Assembly: GCA_037893245.1 (NCBI GenBank)
Contig: JBAIAA010000509.1
Location: 682,001-746,000, forward strand
From: Crossaster papposus
Lineage: Eukaryota; Echinodermata; Asteroidea; Velatida; Solasteridae
DNA: 64,000 bases
Direction of reading: 5' to 3'
Numbering within the stretch: the stretch's first letter is position 1; every line of letters starts with the position of its first letter. Positions 17,801 to 58,934 of the stretch are shown in pieces. The position numbers were made by a program, and so were the translations under genes. The notes below the pieces were generated by a model. That model was not told where the DNA came from. It ran no database searches and worked only from the letters and a program-made list of their open reading frames with translations.

Positions 17801-20800
17801 CCAGTGTAGCGGTTCTCGATATATTTTTTCAGGAGCTGGGTGTTGCGTTATTGTATATTCATGAGTAAGAGCAATGGCAACTCGTGTAAAGAACGGCTTC
17901 CTCAACAAACTCGCCAATAGCATAGTTAGTAGAGAGGAGAGCTATGAATCAATAGATCTGTGGTTCGAATCCGACTATCGTTAACGTTTGTCTTTTTCTT
18001 CGATAAATTTTCTTATGGGTTTCTAAACATAGAACAAGGTTGAGGGGTAGGGTACATAAGCACCTTGAAAAATAAAACAAGAACAGCTACACTGTTTAGT
18101 TTTTAGTGACTTCCGGTGAGGTCAGATTCAGTTTTGCACTTGCAATTTTTAGGTCAGGTCAGGTCATGTCAGGTCAGGTCAGCTACATGTACATGTTACA
18201 GCTATTTCAACACCGAATAGTTGTGTGGATTTTGGATATTTTGTGGTTATAAATAACCTTTTCTTTGGTCATTCATTTTTTTGTTTCAGCAAACTTTTCG
18301 GTCACAATTTGAACAGAAAAACAAACTGAACAATGTTTTCCTGAAATGACATCCTAGCAACAACATTGTTAATGTTTAAAGAAGGGCTCTTTTAAATAAA
18401 AGAAAATCCTTTCAAAAGAAATAATTCCATTCAAGATAAAAACTGTTTTGGTGCCACAATTCTTAAAGAGTTTGTTGGGGTGGAAACAGATTGTGACCGG
18501 CTTTACAATTAAGTCGCGCTGTGTACTATTATGTAATGGCCCGCTCAACATTGCCATGAATGACATCTTTAATACCTACAGTTTCAGGTTTCATTCAAAG
18601 AAATGTTGATGAATAAAGTGGAAAAAAATATTTGTTGTGCATCGTTCTGTTGTAGTACAACAGAGCCGGCTATTTCAAAGCCCGTTTTCTAAGTTGTGTA
18701 ATTTGTGGGCTTTTTAACCATGTATAATCATAGAGAAAGGAACAGAAGGAGATTGAACTACCCGCGCAATAAAAACTGACCAATTAGCTGTTATCGGCAG
18801 GGTCAAGCTGCCCCATAGCCATACTGCACTGACCGCCCGCCGAGCGGTCGTAAAATTTTACGACTTTCGGTCCCAAAGGCTCTCCTTTGTAACTGCGCGT
18901 TCGTCGCCGAATTTCACTGGTAACCAACATCCTCCTTGAGCGACCTGTGTTATAGCGCCTATACTGACGTCACAGTCGCTGCTAGTTCAGTTCATTACTG
19001 GAGTTAAAATTTCACAGTCAAGCAAAACATTTCGCATGCGCAGTTGCTTACGTTCAGCCATGTTTTTCCGATGTGGATGTGCAGTTGTTGAGTTTTCGAC
19101 GTGTTTTTCATTGATGTTTTTCGTGAAAAAATCGGCCTAATACTTGGTGAGTTGTTAACCTTATTATGAAAATCGTTATCATTAATATGTTGTTCACAAA
19201 ATATGATATTTTAATGGACTGCTCGATCTTGCTGGTTCAAGAAATAGTGCATTTTGTTCGTCATGACTTGGGCATTCTGGCGATGGTTGTCAATGTGTTC
19301 GCCAGTGTTAGCCAACCGCAAACCATGCTTTCGAAAAAAAAAAAAAAAAAAACATTTTTTTTTTTCCAAACGTTTTTCAAAGCTGCTTGGCATAGAACAC
19401 AATATGGAATATAATCTTTTCGCCTCCTTTTAGGTGTGTACAAAGAACTAGCAGTAGTAGCAGAGAATTTAGTGCATTTTTACAAAGTCTTTTTATTCTG
19501 TACTACAGTTCACTGTTCCATGACCATGGAGGAATAAACTAGTTTATTCCGACATGACATGGTCATGGATGGTGGGGAGGTGTCTTGAATTGCACATTAA
19601 TACAATTGGAAACGTTCAGATGTCGTCCAGCACTCAGCAGGATCCTTCCCAAAATGTTGTTAAGTAACATAATCCCGAACTAACTTCCTAGGGTGTGTGC
19701 AAAATCAAAGTGATTTTGGAGGATTGAGGACTATAGGAGTATATGGTTAGCGTTGGAGTTATAACTATAATTAAAACAATTTTTATTGTTTTTTTCCTTT
19801 GGCGCTATTCTATACGGGTTGTCATATGATGATAATAATTTGTTTCTTTATTTTTCAGAATTATTCATCTGTATGCCACTCAAAGAGTTCAGTTATGTGC
19901 AAATTATACCATGGAAGATGATTTTCGAAGTCTTTGCAGGCTTTGTGGAGAACATAGAGCAATTGAACTTGGAAGAAATCCTCATAGTAAACATTCTAAT
20001 GCTGAACTCATTTCACGAGCTCTGAACATAGATGTTAATACTGATGACGAGAAGGTGCATCCCCAGTTGGTTTGCTACAGCTGCATAAAAAAACTAAAAT
20101 ATTGGTGGCAAAACCAGAAAAAAAAAAGGTATTACGTGCAGCATCATCGTCCATAATTTTGTAAAAACTGGTTGTGCTGTTTGCCGGAAAGAATTTATTA
20201 CCTTCGATGACATTGCCAATGCACATGGACTTGTAATATGGCGCGGACAACACTTCACCCAGGCGATGCAATTAACTGAAAGTGGAGAAGTTGGCATCAA
20301 CCTTAGACTTTTCCATGACTTAACCTGGAAAACAATTGTCTGCAGAAAAGACATTTCAAGTAGTACGTTTTTTGAAAAAATTCCTGCATTTTTAAGAGAG
20401 CCAAATCACATTATTGATCTTGTGCATTCAGTCACAAATAACGATATTTGTGTTGGAAATAAGGATTTCGAGAACATCGTTGCCACAAAACGAGGCTTGA
20501 GGGGAGAAATTCCAGTAACAATAACTGGTAGTGATTGGCTCGAAAGCTACCCATCCAGTACAATCAGACACAACAATTGCTCTCTTCTGGTACCAAAGAC
20601 CACTGTTAGATGCCAGCCATGCAAGCTGCACCGAGGAGATTTGTTCTCCATTAGCAAACGGATAACAAACAAAAAAAAAATCAGGCATCAGCACATCAAC
20701 AAGAAATGACAGACTAAGTCACGCCCAACTAATTAGGAAGACTTCTGCTCTAAGCAATGAAAAACACCAACTGTCCCGAAAAATACATCGCTTGACATCT

Positions 20801-23800
20801 AAAATAGATGAATTAATAAATGCGGAAGGTGTGTTGCTCCCCCCCACCGAAGAAGAGTCGTTGGTGAAATCCATAAAAGGCAACGATACAGCTCTAAAGG
20901 AAATACTGGGCCAAGGATCTCCAGCTTATCTCCTCTGGGAGCAACAAAAAGAGAGTGCTTCGAAAGGTCGAGGAATGCGCTGGCATCCGGCGATACTACG
21001 ATTGTGTATAGCTTTACATAGCAAGTCTTCTTCAGCTTATAGACTTCTCCGAGAAAGTGGATTTGTGAGGTTACCCCACCCAAACACCCTTCACCCGTAC
21101 AGCCACTTTGGGAACCCATCCACTGGATTTAATCCAGACCTAGTCAAGCGAATCATATGTGACATTGATCTTGCCAACCTGCCAGAGTATCAGAAAAACA
21201 TAACAATTGCCTTTGATGAGATGAAAATCAAGTCTGGCTTGGTGTACAACACCCGCACCGGCCAGCTTGTAGGCTTTGTGGATTTAGGGAGTATCTCCAA
21301 TGAGATTATGACATTCGAGAGAAAATGCCGGGGTGAAGTAGAAGCTCCACTCGCCACTCATGTTCTTGTGTTAATGGCACGAGGGATTTTCTCGTCGCTT
21401 CATGCACCTATCGGCTTCTATGCTACCAGTGGTGCAAGCAGCCACCAGCTGTACCCCATACTCCATGAGGCCATTGTGTTGCTAGAAAATGTTGGATTTA
21501 AAGTTCGGGGTCTTGTATGCGATGGGGCATCTTCTAACAGGAAGTTCTACAAGATGTATGGTGCTCCACAAAAAGATGGGGTGCAATACTTCGCTGTAAA
21601 CCCAGTGGATCAATCCCGAAGGATTTACTACTTCTGTGATGTACCACACCTCATCAAGACCACTCGCAATAACTTTGAGAACTCGGGCTGGAACAACAAG
21701 ACCAGGAACTTACATGTAAGTGAACTAGCGGACATTTTTGGTCTCAAAATGAAAACAGTTCATGCTTCCATCACTTCAATATAGTTGGTGCTTTGACATA
21801 TTTTGTATTTGTTTTTAACCAAATTATATCGATACATGTATGGGCATTACAACTCGCGTATGGAGTTGATTTATTGTCCATGATTAATTGCTTATGTTAG
21901 AATTTGAATTAATGCGGTTTGCTTTTTGCTCAGAATTTTTTAATTAAGAAAATGAAAAGAATGCTGTCATCAAAACTTTTGTGGGAAATAAACTAACAAA
22001 TTAGCAGGTCTTTGAAATCTGTAAATCGATTTTGTTTCACCTAATCTCATTGGTAGTTTTGGTCCTAGGGCTGAATTAAAAAGGAAGTACAAGTAAATAC
22101 TAGTATTTTTTTATTTATGCAGTTCTGTAAACAGGACATCAAGTGGAGTCAACTGATCAGTCTCTACAACTGGGACGTGGGTTTGACAAGAACTTCACCA
22201 GGTCTTCGACGGCTGCACAAGATATCTTACGAGCATCTCCATCTGACGCCATCACTGCGAATGCGTGTGTACATGGCTACCCAGGTACTTGTCATTTAAC
22301 ATTATTTTTTGTATTTAGGAGACTAACTTTTGCAAAGATCTGGACGTCTATCATTATAACATTAATTAAACCTTAGAGAAAGGACCAAAAAAGGGAAGAT
22401 TGGTAACATTGTCTGCCGCAATGGAGCACCGTCATTTTATTTTGTTTTTTCTTTTATTGAAAAAAACAACACGTGAATGTACCCCAATATGGGGGAAAAC
22501 AATTGTTTTGGTTAATATCGCATTAACCCTTATTGTTTTGCATTTAATACAGAAATTCCTTTCCATTTTAGAGAAGTAGTTTTGTTTTGATTATTTTTTT
22601 TCGAGTATAATGCTTTGCACATGTATCACCAAAACTTTTTCTTTATATGCAAACCAGGTCCTGAGCAGCACTGTGGTCAACACCTTTAAAGCACAAGGAA
22701 GGCACGACACAAAATCCACCGAGTTCTTTGTGCAGCAATTTGACCAGTTCTTTGACTGTCTCAACGTATCCAATCCCAACGAGTCCAACCGGAAGCGCAA
22801 GCTGGCCCTAGAACCCTACAAATCCTCTGATGACTGGCGTTTCAAGGTAAATTATTATAATTTTCAGGTTTTGGAAATGTGTCATGAAAAAAAACACCGT
22901 GATCATTAACCATTCACACAACCTTCCCTGTAGCATCATTGCCCTTGATACAGAATTGCACAAGTTCGTCTAAATGGCAGATCCACTGGAAGAAGGGTCA
23001 TGTGTATTATAATTTTTTAAAGATTTTTGTTATCCTCTTTTTGTAGTGGCTGAAAGAAGACTTTCTGGGTTTCCTTGATGAGTGGGAGAAGGAAGTTGCA
23101 GGCCTCCAAGATGTAGACAAAGTGGCCAGACAAAAAATGTGTCTCAGCAGAGAGACCCTTGAAGGCCTCCGCATTACAGGTAGGCTTTAGCAAATTGGTC
23201 TCGGATGAAGAAAAAAAGGATAGTTGATGGTGTTTTTGTGTTGGATCATAGAAAAAGGATCATCCCAGAGGGTTGGTTGCTTAAATGTTAACACCCCCCC
23301 CCCCCCCCCCCCCCCCCAAAGGGTTGAGTTCCCTAAAGCTGCAAGTAAATGCATTGTTTATTTGTCTTTCCGTTTTTTGTTCCCATCCAGTGCATTCATT
23401 CACTGAGCTGGGCCAAATACTGCTAGGAGAGTCTGGTGTGGAGTATCTACTCAGCGACAAACTTAACCAAGACCCGCTTGAGCAGTACTTCTCAAAACAG
23501 CGTGGTACTGGGGGAAGCAGCGATAACCCTACGGCAGAACAATTCGGACACAACATGTTTTCACTGCATGTTGCGTCCTCTTCTCTGAAGGCATCGAAGA
23601 GAGGAAACACCAAGACAGGTGTGACGAAGTCTGCAGATTTGGACAGTACTCCTCTTCCCAAAAGAGTTAAATTAAAATAAGACAAATGAGATGAACATGA
23701 AATACCTGATCCTTAAATTTAAGGCTGCAGTGCAGACGTTTTAGGGTTTTTATTTCTCATTGCATACGACATGTATAGTGTGAATTTAACTTATGGTCAA

Positions 23801-26800
23801 TAATTTAAACATGCATCTGAAAATATATTTTGTCCGTACAAGTTTACTTGGTTTCATTTCATAGTAATCTTCATGTTTACTTGAGAAATTCACTGGAAAT
23901 TAACAGACATATTTGTGCATAAAACAAAAAATACTGGTTTTGTAATACATTTAGACTTCTACATTAAGTATGCAGTTTCCAAGCTTGTTGGAAGTTTCAT
24001 GTCTGCACATACAAAAATATGCATTGTCAAAAGATGTTTCAACCGTTTACTGATATTTTTTGTTTGTTTAACCCTAACTCCCTCACCATTGTTATTGAAC
24101 AATACAATTCCTTCAAAATCCTCCAACTTCCTTTGTTGTGTAGGGAGTTAGGGTTAATATGCATCATTTCGGATTCCTTTACAAGATGGATACTTGTACT
24201 GTTTTCACTGTAATTCAGTGCGCAGACCTTTTTCAGCTTTCTTTGAAACTAGTTTACTAGTTGCTTTTTTAATGTCCAAGTAGACTTTCACAAAGTTTTT
24301 GCACCTAGACTTGATGTAAAAGTCTATTACAATTTGCAGTAAGTTCTTGGATACATCTCCACTTATTTTGTCCTTAATTAAATGAGTCCAGTATTCTTGA
24401 ACTCTAAAATTTGACAAAATCTGATTTCCTAGCTGGGCTTTAATGTCAACTCCTTGAAGTTTGTCCAAATTGTTTGTTTTAAAAAACTTTCTGCTGATGG
24501 TCTCGATGGCTCGAAAAAAAAGGTATACTTTGTCCGACACTTTAAACAGTCCTCCTCTACTTTGTACATCAACCCACTGTCTTGTGTACTGAAGGAAAGT
24601 TTCTGCAGAATTCTTTGCAGTCGAGGCTTGCCATGTTTGAAGAAATTTACAAAATAGGTTTGCAGTTGCATTTTTGTGTTTGCTGTACTTCTTCAATAAA
24701 GCAAAGGGGATGTAACCTGCAACATACCGAAGGACTGCCTCTTCATCTTTTGTCATTTGCTGTTGCTCTTCGATATTCTCGTTCTCACTGGTTGGTTTGT
24801 TTCTTGCCTTAATTAGGTCTAAAAACACCAACTGAAACATGTGCTGAAATAAAATGTTACTACCCGTGCCTATCTGAAGAGTAAGACATCCAAGCAAAGC
24901 TTCCCATTTAGAAATCAGCTTCTCTTTAGCGTGGTGAAATCCAATCCACAGAGACTCGTAGAGTTGTGGCTTGAGCTGGGCGCCATCCTCACAGCTGAAC
25001 ACTATCCAGAGTGCAGCGATAGACGTTTCAGAGAACTCTTGAAACGCGGGTGCTTCAATACACAACAGCAATTGTGTAACAAGAGCAATAACTTGGATGG
25101 AATTTGCAGTGTTGAAATTAAAAACTGGGTGGTCTTTTATTCTTTCAAGAGCTTCCCGAAAATAGGTTGTTGCGCTGTTCACTGCATCCGTCTCGGTATA
25201 TGATGAAGCAGGTCTTTTGATAGCTATTGGTAAAACAAAAACATTACATGAATAAACATGCATCTACTGTATGTTACAACATACAGAAGGGAACAGTTCC
25301 TTTCTCTATGGTTACAACAAATATTTGAAAAACATGCCTTGGAGAAATAAAATACTGGTGTCATAAAAGACATCCACTTAATGTCATCAGATAAGTATAA
25401 CATTTCACGAGCAGGAAGACTGAAACATTCTTTTTTTTCTCAGAACAAAGCATTGTCTTACGGTTTTACCTTTTTTTCTCTCCTTCGGCTTGGCCTTGTC
25501 AACATGATCATCTGTTCCTTCAGTAGCTGTAAGAATTTAAATTGTAAATGAAATGGTATTTTCTCATTAAATCTATTTCACAGTTTCCCTACAGCTAAAC
25601 ACTTTAAAATCAGAGCATTCAAATTAACTAACTGCTTCTTAACCACTTTGACTAATACAAATTTCTGATAATAACAACTACTTTTGCTAGGTCCGGGTTT
25701 AGTTTGTATTAACGAGAGTCGACTTTGGGTATAGTTTTATTCATATGGTGTTATAGTTTCACCAGGTGTTCTTCAGTCTTCTCTAGAATTTAAAGTGAAT
25801 TCAGATTATGTTCGATTATTTTTAAACTTTGAAAATACCTTTCTTCTTTCTTTTGCCTTTAACATTCGCCTGTTTTGCTTTGTTTGCTTCACTGGACACT
25901 GGCTCCTTAGAAGATGTAGATGGCCCTGTAATTCAAATACATTTGAGCTAAATTATTTTCAATACATTTATTTGTTGGGAGAAAAATCCAAATGGCATAG
26001 AATCAAATAATCGGTTAAGCAAAAATGAGTGGAACAATTTACAGTATTCCATTATTAATATTATACGAGACAAACAATAAAATTATGTTATTATGTAGTT
26101 AATAATGGGTTTTAAATTTTTAATTAAATTTTACAAATAAACATTAAGATGTTTTTATTGTTGAAATTCCCCATGACTTCAAAGCTGCTACCTACAGTGT
26201 ACAAGTTAATATTTTAGACAGAATTTACCTTTCTGCATTCCTTGGCTTTTGCTCTTCGAAACTTTAGTGGATGTTGATGTCGCAATCAATGTAGACGGTT
26301 CTGTTAAAAACAAAACAAAAAAACACTTTATTCACTGATTTAAAACTACTGGGCTTGCACGTCACAATAACAAACCTACAAATTTTTGTTGTTCACTAAA
26401 AAGTACTGCCTGGCCTACTTAACCAGTTCGCGCCGGGATTATTTTAACATCGCTGAGCCCACGGGCGGGATTGTTTTTAACGAAACTCGATCCGAAGCGG
26501 GTTCAGGCTGATAGTGCCGGGAAGCACACCCACGCATTTCCGACCTTGCTCGCTGCTGACATACATTTACGAACTTGAACTTGGCGTGTTTATGCGTCAT
26601 CAGTTTTGAATTTGGGGAAATGTTTGCGTCTATATACGTCATCCGGCGCGAACTGGTTAACAAATTAATACTCATTACAACAATTAAATTAGGACCTAAA
26701 CAATTGATACTTTGTTTTACTGTAACTATAATTCAATGACTAAAATCATTTTATTTTCAAAGCAAATAATTGTAAAAACGTACCTTCATTTGCTGTCCTG

Positions 26801-29800
26801 CACCTTGAACAATACCATTCGTCTGACATGTCCAAAGCGGAAGCAACCGTTTCGCTCACGCACCCGATGTGCCACCACTGAATTGGGCATTCATCGTTAC
26901 AACACGCTATCATTTCCTCGGTTAAAATTCCCCTACAGATGCAAAAGGTGGAACTATCGTGTTCTTCGATATCTTCTTCAATTGACAAAACCATATCGTG
27001 GGCCAAATCATTCTGTTCGAAGTCTGAAAAATCACTCAAATTGTCCAAATCGACGTCGTCAAAGCCACTCATGAACGTCGCCATCTTGACTGTAAAATAG
27101 TTCTGCGCGTGCGTGTACCTGTAGAAATTGCCCACAATGCAATGCAATGACCATATTTAGCAAACCTTGGCCCGCAAGCTGTGCGCGTTGATTGATTGGA
27201 ATGGTGTTTGCTAGCCACAGCGAGCGCTCGTAAACCCGCTGTTTTACGACCGCGGCGATGTACGTATTGCCCCTTGATGTTCCAGAGTTGGAACTCCTTC
27301 TGTTCCTTTCTCTATGGTATAATATAACTCAATATTTTTGTTTTGCGACATAATACACCTTTTTGTAGAGCCGGTCACATATTAAGTGCATAGCAATTGT
27401 ACAATTGACTTACCTCATATAACTGAATTCCTCTCGTGGAAATTCCCAACCAGATGGAGGGCGTCGGTTCTGTTTTTATCTGAAAAGGGTTCAAGTAAGA
27501 GAAAGAAGCAGTATTTACTGTACTGTCAAATTAGAGACAACAAAGAAATCGAAGAATATCAGACCGACGCTCTGCCAACTGAGCTATCTTGCCCTTTTGT
27601 TGGCGGTCTCCCAAATTGTCAGTATCTTTGTTCAAGGGCGCTAATCAGAAGTCACAAACACCAGAATGCCGTGTGGCCAGGACTTGATACGATACAACAC
27701 GGAAAGCGGCATTGTGGGGACATACATGTAGGGCAAGAAAGCTCAGTTGGTACAGCACCAGTCCGGTATTTCGGAGGTCGCAGGTTCAAGTCCCGCCTTG
27801 CCTATTTCTTTGTTCACTTTGAAATTCATGCAAATTTATCTACTCAGTTTCCCTTGGGGTTTATTTGTGTAATAAAAGAAAAGATACGTCTGCTCAGAGT
27901 ACTGTATATCAGTAAAAAACATCTTCTTACCCCGGAACATAAATTTGACCATTAGGCCACGGCACTCCACCCATATTGTCCACCTTCATATAAATCCAAT
28001 GTAGTGATATTGTTTTTAGAGGGACTGGTAATTATTGCATAGTGTAAGTTAATTATAACCAGCAGAGGGCGCTAGTTAACACGACCAGTAAGTTCAGCGC
28101 GCTATAAATAAACCTGGTATCTGGGCTGTCGAGCAGGGGTCACTGGGGCAAACAGATTGATACATTTTGGATACTTTTTGGAAAAACGGAGAACGCGTGA
28201 CAAGAATGAAGGGGAAGACTGAACGAAAACTAGACTAAAGGAAAGGAAATGTTTTTGTGTCTTCGGTGACAACTGGCATGGAGGAATAACTGATGAGTAA
28301 ATAATAAATAGAAGGGAGATGTTTTACGTGTCTGGTGTCCTGGATTCTTGAAGATTCTCTGGTTTACGTGTTTACCCTCCCCTCGCCTCACGGCGTTGCA
28401 CTACACCAACTTGGGCTAAACGTCCATGGTGTCCCCCTAAGATGCTGGGGGCCATTACAGTCAGAACCACCATATACTGGGTTCTCACCTTTTTTAGGCG
28501 ATAGAAGTGCATGACCTGTTCAATGGTGTTGGAGGCTTCTCGGATGTAGGCTCTCTGTGCGTTCACTCGGGTGGTCGCCCGTTGGTCCCGGTGCATTGCT
28601 GGAATATGCTTCAAAATGTAGGCCTCCCCTCTCCTCTTGATAACCTGTTTAAAAAGGAAAAGTACACCTTTTGTAACTAACCCAAAAGTAACCAACCAAA
28701 TTATTGTTCAAAAGCTTACTTGACGTAAAGATATTAATGACTCTAATCTCCCTGTGAAATTATTCCTTCTGGCATGCTGTCATTTTTAAGAAAAAAATGA
28801 AAACAGTCCAAAAATGGGTCTTAGATACGCATTTTGAAGAAAAAGAATTAAATTGTAGTTTGTTAAAAATGTAAATCTTAAAATATTTTCTCAGAAAGTT
28901 ATACATTGTGTACAGCATTCACAGAGCTAAAACTTTGTCGGGTTAGTTGTAAATCACCTTTTGGGAATTTTTAGATTTTGAGAACTTTAGCTGCAGCTTC
29001 AACCGACAGAAATGCACAAATGACAAAATTATGGTATAATAATGAACGTGTGTAAGAGCATCAAAATACATGTAGATGTACTGTACATGTAAGACTATTG
29101 TGATTTCAAATCCTAAGGATCAGAGCACCTGAAATGAAAATAGGAAAGTGCTTTCTGGTCAAGAATTTGGTCATAATATACACAGAGAACTAAAGAAACT
29201 ATACCTAACACACCTATTAAGCTATATTACTATACATGTACATGTACCTCATACATATTCATGATGGAGAGCCAAATTCTCACTGGTCAATTCACCATCA
29301 CGTGCCAGCCGCTATTTGCGCACGCAAGTATTCATGCACAGGGTAAAAACGCATGCGTAGTAGGCAAGTGCACGATTTGCCGGGTGCTATAGTCTACTAC
29401 ACATGCGCTTTACAATGCCATTGTGTAACTAGCACACGGGCACATAGTTCACACGCGCGAACATCGCCCTACGTGTAGCTTGTCATGAAAAGATGGCAGC
29501 AGACGTAAATGATTAATCAGCATTTTCCCAATCTTCTGAAATTGTTATGAACTAAATATGTACATGTATGAGGTACCGTTCCAGGCCTGTACGCAGGATT
29601 TTGTATGGGGGGTGCGAATTTGTACTGATGGGACCAAAAATGGAACCCACATTTTTTGTGTACCAGTACCGTTATTTCTACATCAAAATACCATTATTTC
29701 TACATCAAAATACCATTATTTACCCCGAAAAATGTGGACCTTTTGGTAATTTGGGGGGCGAATTTGTACTGATGGGACCAAAAATGGGACCAAATTTGTG

Positions 29801-57574: not shown

Positions 57575-58934
57575 ATACATTAAACCGTTGTAATTGTTCA
57601 TAAGCTCGTACACTTTTGGAGTTTTAGAATACAGTTCTGTATAAATCATATTATAGACCATACACTGACTTACCTAAATTTTGAAGATGAAGACCAACCA
57701 TTCAATTCTTTGTCTTCTTAGTTCTTGGTTTCAAAGTTCTCTTGAATCAGCAGGTGCCTTTGGTAGATATGTACATCCCAAGGTGTTAATTGATTGATCA
57801 CATATAAATCCTGTTCTAGTAGAAACCATCTATCTCCATACATAAATTTATAGTTGCCTTTAAAGAACATCACAAGCAGAAGAACATGACTGAATTATTA
57901 TTCCTTGGAATATGCTCCGAGTTGTAAAAACAAAATCCACACCACTGCCAAGGTCAGCCACAATACTCTGGCATGATGAAAAGTGCACGTGCACTTTTTA
58001 CATGTACCAGTACTTCCAATTGGTTCCTGTAAAAAGACACAGGAATAAAACGGTTATAAAACTGCCACACAAAAGTGTTGTTGTGGAAAAATAGAACTAA
58101 TCAAACATGAGGAATTCTGTGCAAGGTGTTCTCATCAACAACAATATTGTTGCTGCCAATGCAGTACAGTGCTCCTGGGTTGAAAACACAGCATACACAT
58201 ATTCCAGGGCCACATACCAGGGGCTCTGGGCTGTACCATTATCAAAGGAGGGCAGTGAATACACTTAAACAAAATTAATTCATTGATTTCCACACCTTTC
58301 AAAAACTTTACAAATACTTCCCGACTATCTGAGCATGAGCAAATTCAATAAGTGGAGCAAACATTGTTTTTAGAGCTTGCAGATTGAGGGTTAAAATCTG
58401 GAAAAGAAGAAAATCTGACACATTCCAGAAATGGACTAATCTCATTCGTATTTAAATAGCCACATTTGCCAACAAGCAGGCATGCAGTACTGATTCAAAC
58501 TGCCAGTGCCAGCACAATGGATAGGAGTGCATTAGTGGCATTCCATAGTGGGTCAGGGTTGTGAGCAAATCAATGAATGGAACAGTAGCATTAGAAAGGG
58601 GAGGGGCTATATCTTGCTTGTGACAAATGAACAGACAACTAATAATGAATATGCATAGGACTTGTATTGGCTATTCTCATTCCATAGAAGTGTGTTTGTT
58701 ATAGATAACAATAAGGAAAAACCACTGCACTAATTAATCACACACAAAAACATTGCTGAAAGCATAGAGCAAGGTTCCTTGCTCTATGCTGAAAGTATGT
58801 ATAATGCTTTACATTCCAATATAATTAATGCAAAAAAAACAAGTCAAAAAACATACTGCATTTACCTAATAATTCAAGCAATTGGTAGCAATACCAGTGG
58901 TCAGTGTATCCATGGAGAAATAAGACTCCTACCT
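57575..58934. other. intergenic, no gene recognised
   Basis: No convincing ORF or repeat boundary. A small inverted duplication AGAGCAAGG-TTCCTTGCTCT lies near 58766-58788. Confidence 0.35.

Follow-up and report, generated by a model that had tools for sequence, protein, structure and literature searches.

In this study, we report the characterisation of a two-gene transposon in the genome of the asteroid Crossaster papposus, which, judged by its catalytic core, is probably a variant within the P superfamily. The stretch analysed (the window) comprises 64,000 nucleotides of contig JBAIAA010000509.1 (here C509), positions 682001-746000, and the genome searched comprised 1.02 Gb in 1,841 contigs. 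The element occupies positions 18729-27316 of the window (8,588 bp). Its 23-bp terminal inverted repeats (TIRs) agree without mismatch, similarity between the ends extends to 31 nt at 90%, and the 7-bp target site duplication (TSD) GTATAAT is present on both sides. The 11-mer GCGGTCGTAAA forms a subterminal inverted repeat, at 18844 (+) and 27243 (-). Inside lie a transposase gene on the + strand (gene 1, 19911-23680; four introns, all after 21715) and, convergent with it, a second gene on the - strand (gene 2, 27084-24205), a five-exon open frame of 511 aa with GT..AG introns. The original prediction had described perfect 23 bp TIRs, a 7 bp duplication, 11 bp subterminal repeats and two convergent spliced genes, all of which were confirmed. 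The features of the element are listed below (CTD, C-terminal domain; HTH, helix-turn-helix; GBD, GTP-binding domain).

18722..18728, no strand: left TSD GTATAAT (end comparison)
18729..18751, +: left 23-bp TIR (inverted-repeat and genome 23-mer search)
18844..18854, +: left subterminal inverted repeat GCGGTCGTAAA (11-mer search)
19911..20126, +: gene 1 before its first frame break, encoding a RAG1-N/ZAD-like zinc domain at the N-terminus (Pfam, family profile)
20127..20676, +: gene 1, resumed in the following frame, with the third CxxC ahead of a linker (open frame 20098-20709)
20677..21715, +: gene 1, coiled coil and putative HTH, followed by the N-terminal part of RNase H, which includes both catalytic Asp (open frame 20666-21784)
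22123..22284, +: gene 1 exon, GTP-binding insertion (GBD matched in the joined protein)
22658..22846, +: gene 1 exon, GTP-binding insertion
23047..23179, +: gene 1 exon
23391..23680, +: gene 1 last exon, C-terminal part of RNase H with QDPLE, short tail, stop
24205..25223, -: gene 2 exon 5, P transposase CTD, stop
25280..25310, no strand: excision-scar-like palindrome formed by two TIR tips; 7-bp duplication GTTACAA (palindrome scan)
25470..25526, -: gene 2 exon 4, Lys-rich linker
25839..25925, -: gene 2 exon 3, Lys-rich linker
26229..26300, -: gene 2 exon 2, linker
26784..27084, -: gene 2 exon 1, with an ING-type PHD finger after an acidic N-terminus
27243..27253, -: right subterminal inverted repeat (11-mer search)
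27294..27316, -: right 23-bp TIR (inverted-repeat and genome 23-mer search)
27317..27323, no strand: right TSD GTATAAT (end comparison)

The two genes were found together repeatedly. Among the best 16 of 117 rows of the transposase search (52-100% identity), several of them near-identical to one another, all 16 had a convergent gene 2, with 2.4-4.6 kb between the matched cores. Both genes were located between TIRs with perfect 7-bp TSDs at five loci, on contigs C509, C17, C890, C273 and C443. The copies on C17 and C890 are near-complete and about 99% identical, with differing TSDs (ATTACAT and GTATGTC). Those on C273 and C443 (TSDs CTCCAAC and GTTCTAC), known from their ends and matched cores only, have a transposase identity of 54-59%, a partner identity of 43-44% and TIRs one base off those of the window; gene 1 at C443 is broken and fragmentary. 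Co-occurrence of the pair between the same TIRs at other loci, the check proposed in the original prediction, was thus positive at four loci outside the window. The pattern named there as refuting, a TIR-bounded whole transposase lacking the partner, with the PHD protein as an ordinary host gene, was not seen among the 20 stretches of ten kb that were read, alongside a few shorter ones, elsewhere in the genome. One of the 20, L015 (C633; TSD GTCACTC), is a TIR-bounded deletion derivative in which only a 5' piece of gene 1 survives beside the left end and gene 2 is absent. L018/L019, L026 and L028 are short derivatives, and the TIR-bounded copies on C430 (TSD GTTGGAT) and C1249 (GTTAGAT) have kept gene 2, in pieces at C1249, and lost most of gene 1. 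The two genes recur as a pair within shared bounds.

The pairing table took 37 of the 117 transposase rows and 28 of the 53 gene-2 rows. A convergent partner within 12 kb was present for 18/37 transposase rows, and 10/28 gene-2 rows stood without a transposase in the list. The 19 unpartnered transposase rows comprised partial rows (C359, C282, C513, three of C305, C191, C165:215117 and C579), two rows of C463 and C117 at which the profile later revealed a diverged partner (C463:1473055, C117), C463:896948 and C648, whose DNA was unread, and six rows at 26-30% identity, of which one, C164 (L040), was read. The latter is of THAP9 type; it showed no partner in the 7 kb read and a weak fused THAP9_C match below the cut-off. 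Two distant families that appeared partnerless by single-sequence search had a convergent gene 2 by family profile (L038, 2.2e-15; L039, 5e-12; E-values for searches of the 8-kb stretches), with an acidic N-terminal exon bearing a C2H2-like finger, below Pfam cut-offs, in place of the PHD. A further pair on C177 (L037), in which the main exons of both genes are open, encodes a RAG1-N-like domain (gene 1) and a PHD (gene 2); no TIR was recognised around it. Its flanking frames (L037 3-437 and 9369-9914) resemble, by eye, pieces of another mobile element, tyrosine-recombinase-like on the left and SGNH-like on the right. Two other intervals, C267:122409-126671 and C910:41051-52479, are TIR-bounded with perfect 7-bp TSDs; the partner is matched only weakly in them (32% over about 60 residues), and neither appears among the rows of the transposase search.

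The pair probably also occurs in other animals. In the public proteins of Acanthaster planci and Branchiostoma floridae, two of the six species present in both protein lists, gene 1 and gene 2 have near-consecutive LOC numbers, from which their neighbourhood was deduced, and stand on contigs of equal size. The listed proteins of Patiria, Anneissia, Diadema and a hybrid Branchiostoma are on contigs of different sizes and speak for linkage neither way. Many relatives of both genes are annotated as uncharacterized in NCBI.

The 23-mer of the TIR was found at 57 genomic places at up to 2 mismatches, and its reversed control at 0, a point not raised in the original prediction. The 11-mer at up to 1 mismatch had three matches across the window, all within the element, against 0.5 expected. 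TIRs and subterminal inverted repeats of the kind known from the canonical P element and THAP9 are hence present in the window element. The canonical 8-bp TSD was not found; perfect 7-bp TSDs flank the copies in the window and at L009, L010, L012, L015, L018/L019, L026 and L028, as well as those on C273, C443, C1249, C910 and C267, and C53 has no TSD. An allelic empty site of the window element was not found, both 800-bp flanks matching repeats elsewhere. The many TSD-flanked copies record past mobility.

The gene 1 family has an RNase H core with the P-type GTP-binding insertion. The DDE residues are present in 19/19, 19/19 and, among the rows reaching the third, 13/13 family rows, and the core scored 35.7 against the Drosophila P transposase structure 6p5a, versus 13.2 against Transib and 11.5 against RAG1; it is thus P-type, not Transib-type. 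The HTH domain (Tnp_P_element) was matched in 9/19 family members at E 0.01, the window exon lying below the cut-off at 0.013. A THAP domain, on which the original prediction was silent, was not among the six Pfam families matched by any of the 19 members. The CTD that canonical P and THAP9 transposases carry on the transposase chain is also missing from gene 1 and was found on gene 2: the chain stops 67-93 residues past the QD motif in all 13 members measured, whereas 99 of the 117 proteins in the THAP9-type comparison set continue for at least 150 residues. The distant L038 (647-3373) encodes a 909-aa open P-type transposase with QDILK in place of QDxxE, so that a Lys occupies the position of the catalytic Glu, and this enzyme is possibly inactive or domesticated.

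Two A-runs in gene 1 of the window, at about 20119-20128 and 20670-20680, each contain a frame break, likewise absent from the original prediction. The second break is not present in the C17 copy, which is open there over 561 codons. The first, in the A-run 20119-20128, is identical in L009 and L010; L013 shifts at both positions, and L014 at an A-run some codons upstream of the first break, not at the break itself, so that the frame is interrupted at the junction in all four of these copies. This break may reflect decay or a frameshift bypassed by slippage. An intron as its cause was discarded by eye because it would remove the third CxxC that relatives keep.

The frame of gene 2 is open in three of the four copies read (window, L009 and L012), L010 having one internal stop. 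Its PHD finger is ING-like (ING2 match, E 1e-12), as originally predicted, though its score of 21.0 is below the Pfam PHD cut-off of 24; being close to host ING proteins, the finger was probably acquired from a host gene at some time. The body is all-alpha and matches the P transposase CTD (residues 154-321 of the model form the matched part). A first set of hhalign runs on untrimmed alignments gave a probability of 99.8 and was dropped, since alignments with shuffled columns still yielded probabilities as high as 99.1 and scores as high as 138; the runs were then redone on trimmed alignments with controls, and these related the gene 2 CTD by profile to the THAP9-type CTD. Gene 2 is missed by Pfam THAP9_C (17 places matched across the genome, 0 of them at a listed gene 2 locus), Foldseek alone returned no match at E 0.001 for the model of the CTD, and a PDB sequence search with the gene 2 profile returned nothing under E 0.1. 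The gene 2 protein appears to carry the CTD that gene 1 is missing. The large unassigned C-terminal domain of the original prediction matches a P CTD, and the label 'accessory factor' needs replacing, because the second protein bears the missing domain of the transposase itself.

The N-terminal zinc domain of gene 1 seems to be related to the N-terminus of RAG1. A profile of the 19-member family reached RAG1 at E 7.3e-10 and 2.3e-8 and the ZAD structure 7po9 at 0.0096. The features HxxxLxxxCRxCG, IDVxxDxxxxHPxxxCxxC and HxxxCxIC aligned within residues 101-217 of mouse RAG1, the third pair (HxxxCxIC) falling inside the RAG1 alignment and outside the ZAD match, and at E 0.01 RAG1_imp_bd matched 12/19 family members and zf-AD 9/19. 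Single sequences lean slightly the other way and weigh against an identity with RAG1-N: zf-AD outscored RAG1_imp_bd in the window exon (3.3e-7 versus 1.5e-6), in the joined window protein (3.9e-5 versus 0.0044, both below the cut-off) and in L037 (2.2e-5 versus 0.001), and the single window exon reached the RAG1 structure at E 0.0088 only. These scores would suit an ordinary ZAD whose likeness to RAG1 is a convergent zinc-finger spacing; given the family profile, the third pair and the member counts, we hold this to be improbable. According to passages of PMC4411706, an N-terminal 'Chapa' zinc domain occurs in Chapaev, as in RAG1, and the gene 1 domain would by inference be the same. Separately, a 177-aa open frame at L041 (C616, 952-1482, -) has a RAG1_imp_bd match above the cut-off, and two more such places are on C630 and at C117:2901849.

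At a probability of about 80%, we interpret the element as a cut-and-paste P-superfamily transposon with a transposase divided between two convergent genes, gene 2 encoding the CTD as a separate subunit. Gene 1 would be the catalytic subunit, in which a RAG1-N-related zinc domain replacing THAP precedes a putative HTH and the RNase H DDE core, itself interrupted by the GTP-binding insertion; the chain ends soon past the catalytic Glu. Gene 2 would supply the CTD otherwise present on the same chain in P and THAP9 transposases, joined through a Lys-rich linker to the ING-type PHD. Gene 1 protein would bind the ends through its zinc domain and HTH, synapse them and cut, and gene 2 protein would dock in trans at the position of the Drosophila CTD, between RNase H and the GTP-binding domain, holding transposon and target DNA; both genes would consequently be needed for autonomous movement. 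The finger of gene 2 may set a preference for chromatin or DNA, which would explain why fingers have been exchanged and the CTD kept. That the PHD tethers the complex to chromatin marked on histone H3, by analogy with the RAG2 PHD in RAG, is the least certain step, and we give it about even odds.

Other explanations for the second gene were considered. Gene 2 could be a regulator instead of a subunit: either a repressor derived from a CTD or a factor that counters host silencing, retained because it controls copy number or local chromatin. Its open frame in most copies read, against damage to gene 1 in the family copies read, the persistence of copies with gene 2 and little of gene 1 (C430, C1249) and the varying finger type would suit such a role, which nevertheless leaves unexplained why gene 1 has no CTD, a part that contacts both DNAs in Drosophila P, and why the missing part of gene 1 and its partner match exactly; we regard it as quite improbable. 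The closeness of the PHD to host ING proteins would also be expected of a host PHD-finger gene trapped by chance between TIRs. A mere passenger, however, would hardly recur beside the transposase across diverged families of this genome and, to judge from LOC numbers, in A. planci and B. floridae, nor would its body be a transposase domain, and we consider this explanation scarcely credible. A last alternative concerns novelty: the lineage may already have been described, as N-RAG-TP or in Repbase Reports, so that only its pieces are assembled here. The Aplysia element N-RAG-TP is cited in part of PMC8355894 as a transposon with RAG1 N-terminal-like sequence, and many such proteins stand uncharacterized in NCBI; on the other hand, no two-gene or split P transposase was found in titles and abstract beginnings of the open-licence literature outside Repbase Reports and the N-RAG-TP paper, and a passage of PMC4411706 states that RING plus Chapa occur in no other known transposable elements. 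Prior description thus seems possible, though unlikely.

Two palindromes in the window may bear on the cutting mechanism. One, 31 bp long and made of two TIR tips, lies in a gene 2 intron (25280-25310) with the perfect 7-bp duplication GTTACAA. Far outside the element, at 58763-58788, is a second of 26 bp (CATAGAGCAAGG type) with the perfect 7-bp duplication CTGAAAG. A scan of the window and of the read loci except L001-L008 and L029-L036 gave five hits, the two in the window and one of these again in L009, L010 and L012; shuffled windows gave 0 in 20. Both window palindromes look like excision scars keeping 13-15 nt of each end, a reading made plausible by the 17-nt stagger that a review, consulted in part, reports for Drosophila P, and they would fit a staggered cut inside the TIR; another reading is an internally deleted mini-insertion. 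Two nested insertions were also observed. One, at about 26424-26656, has 18-bp inverted ends at TTAA and a precise empty site in the C17 copy. The other, at about 24072-24153, has 16-bp inverted ends and is not in C17; about 90 bp of it are 100% identical in L018/L019.

Compared with the Drosophila P transposase (6P5A/6PE2), the present system comprises two genes, the convergent second one uniting the CTD with a PHD; it lacks THAP and has a TSD of 7 bp instead of 8 bp. THAP9-type P elements, as in zebrafish and at L040 in this genome, share the core family and a CTD related by profile, and differ in carrying it on the same chain; the zebrafish element has an 8-bp TSD, according to part of a review. 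PIF/Harbinger elements are also cut-and-paste transposons with two genes, but their core is unrelated, and their second protein is Myb-like and not a split-off transposase domain. With RAG1-RAG2 and RAG-like transposons, the element shares a zinc domain related to the RAG1 N-terminus and a convergent second gene with a PHD finger, whereas its core is P-type, not Transib-type, and its TSD is 7 bp, not 5 bp. No kelch propeller, a trait of RAG2, was seen in gene 2, which has an all-alpha P CTD and an N-terminal, ING-type PHD. N-RAG-TP, as cited in PMC8355894, shares the RAG1 N-terminal-like sequence; Chapaev has the Chapa domain and a core that PMC4411706, in the passages concerned, places with Transib. 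The features shared with RAG may reflect convergence, domain exchange, or a role as donor or recipient. In a bolder form, which we think rather unlikely, the element would represent a P transposase of two obligate subunits, ancient among deuterostomes and perhaps cnidarians, with a CTD in trans and exchangeable fingers, which reached the outer features of RAG transposons (RAG1-N zinc domain, convergent PHD partner) independently or by domain exchange; at its strongest, the N-terminal region of RAG1 would have come from a member of the lineage, possibly N-RAG-TP.

Textbooks present P elements as single-gene transposons, and a two-protein enzyme would change the picture of the family. With the CTD naturally placed on a subunit of its own, its role could be tested directly, and the transposase would come with a built-in histone reader. 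If a P-type enzyme indeed bears a RAG1-N-like domain, this would contradict the statement on Chapa exclusivity in that part of PMC4411706, and would offer a concrete candidate source, or a sister user, of this part of RAG1.

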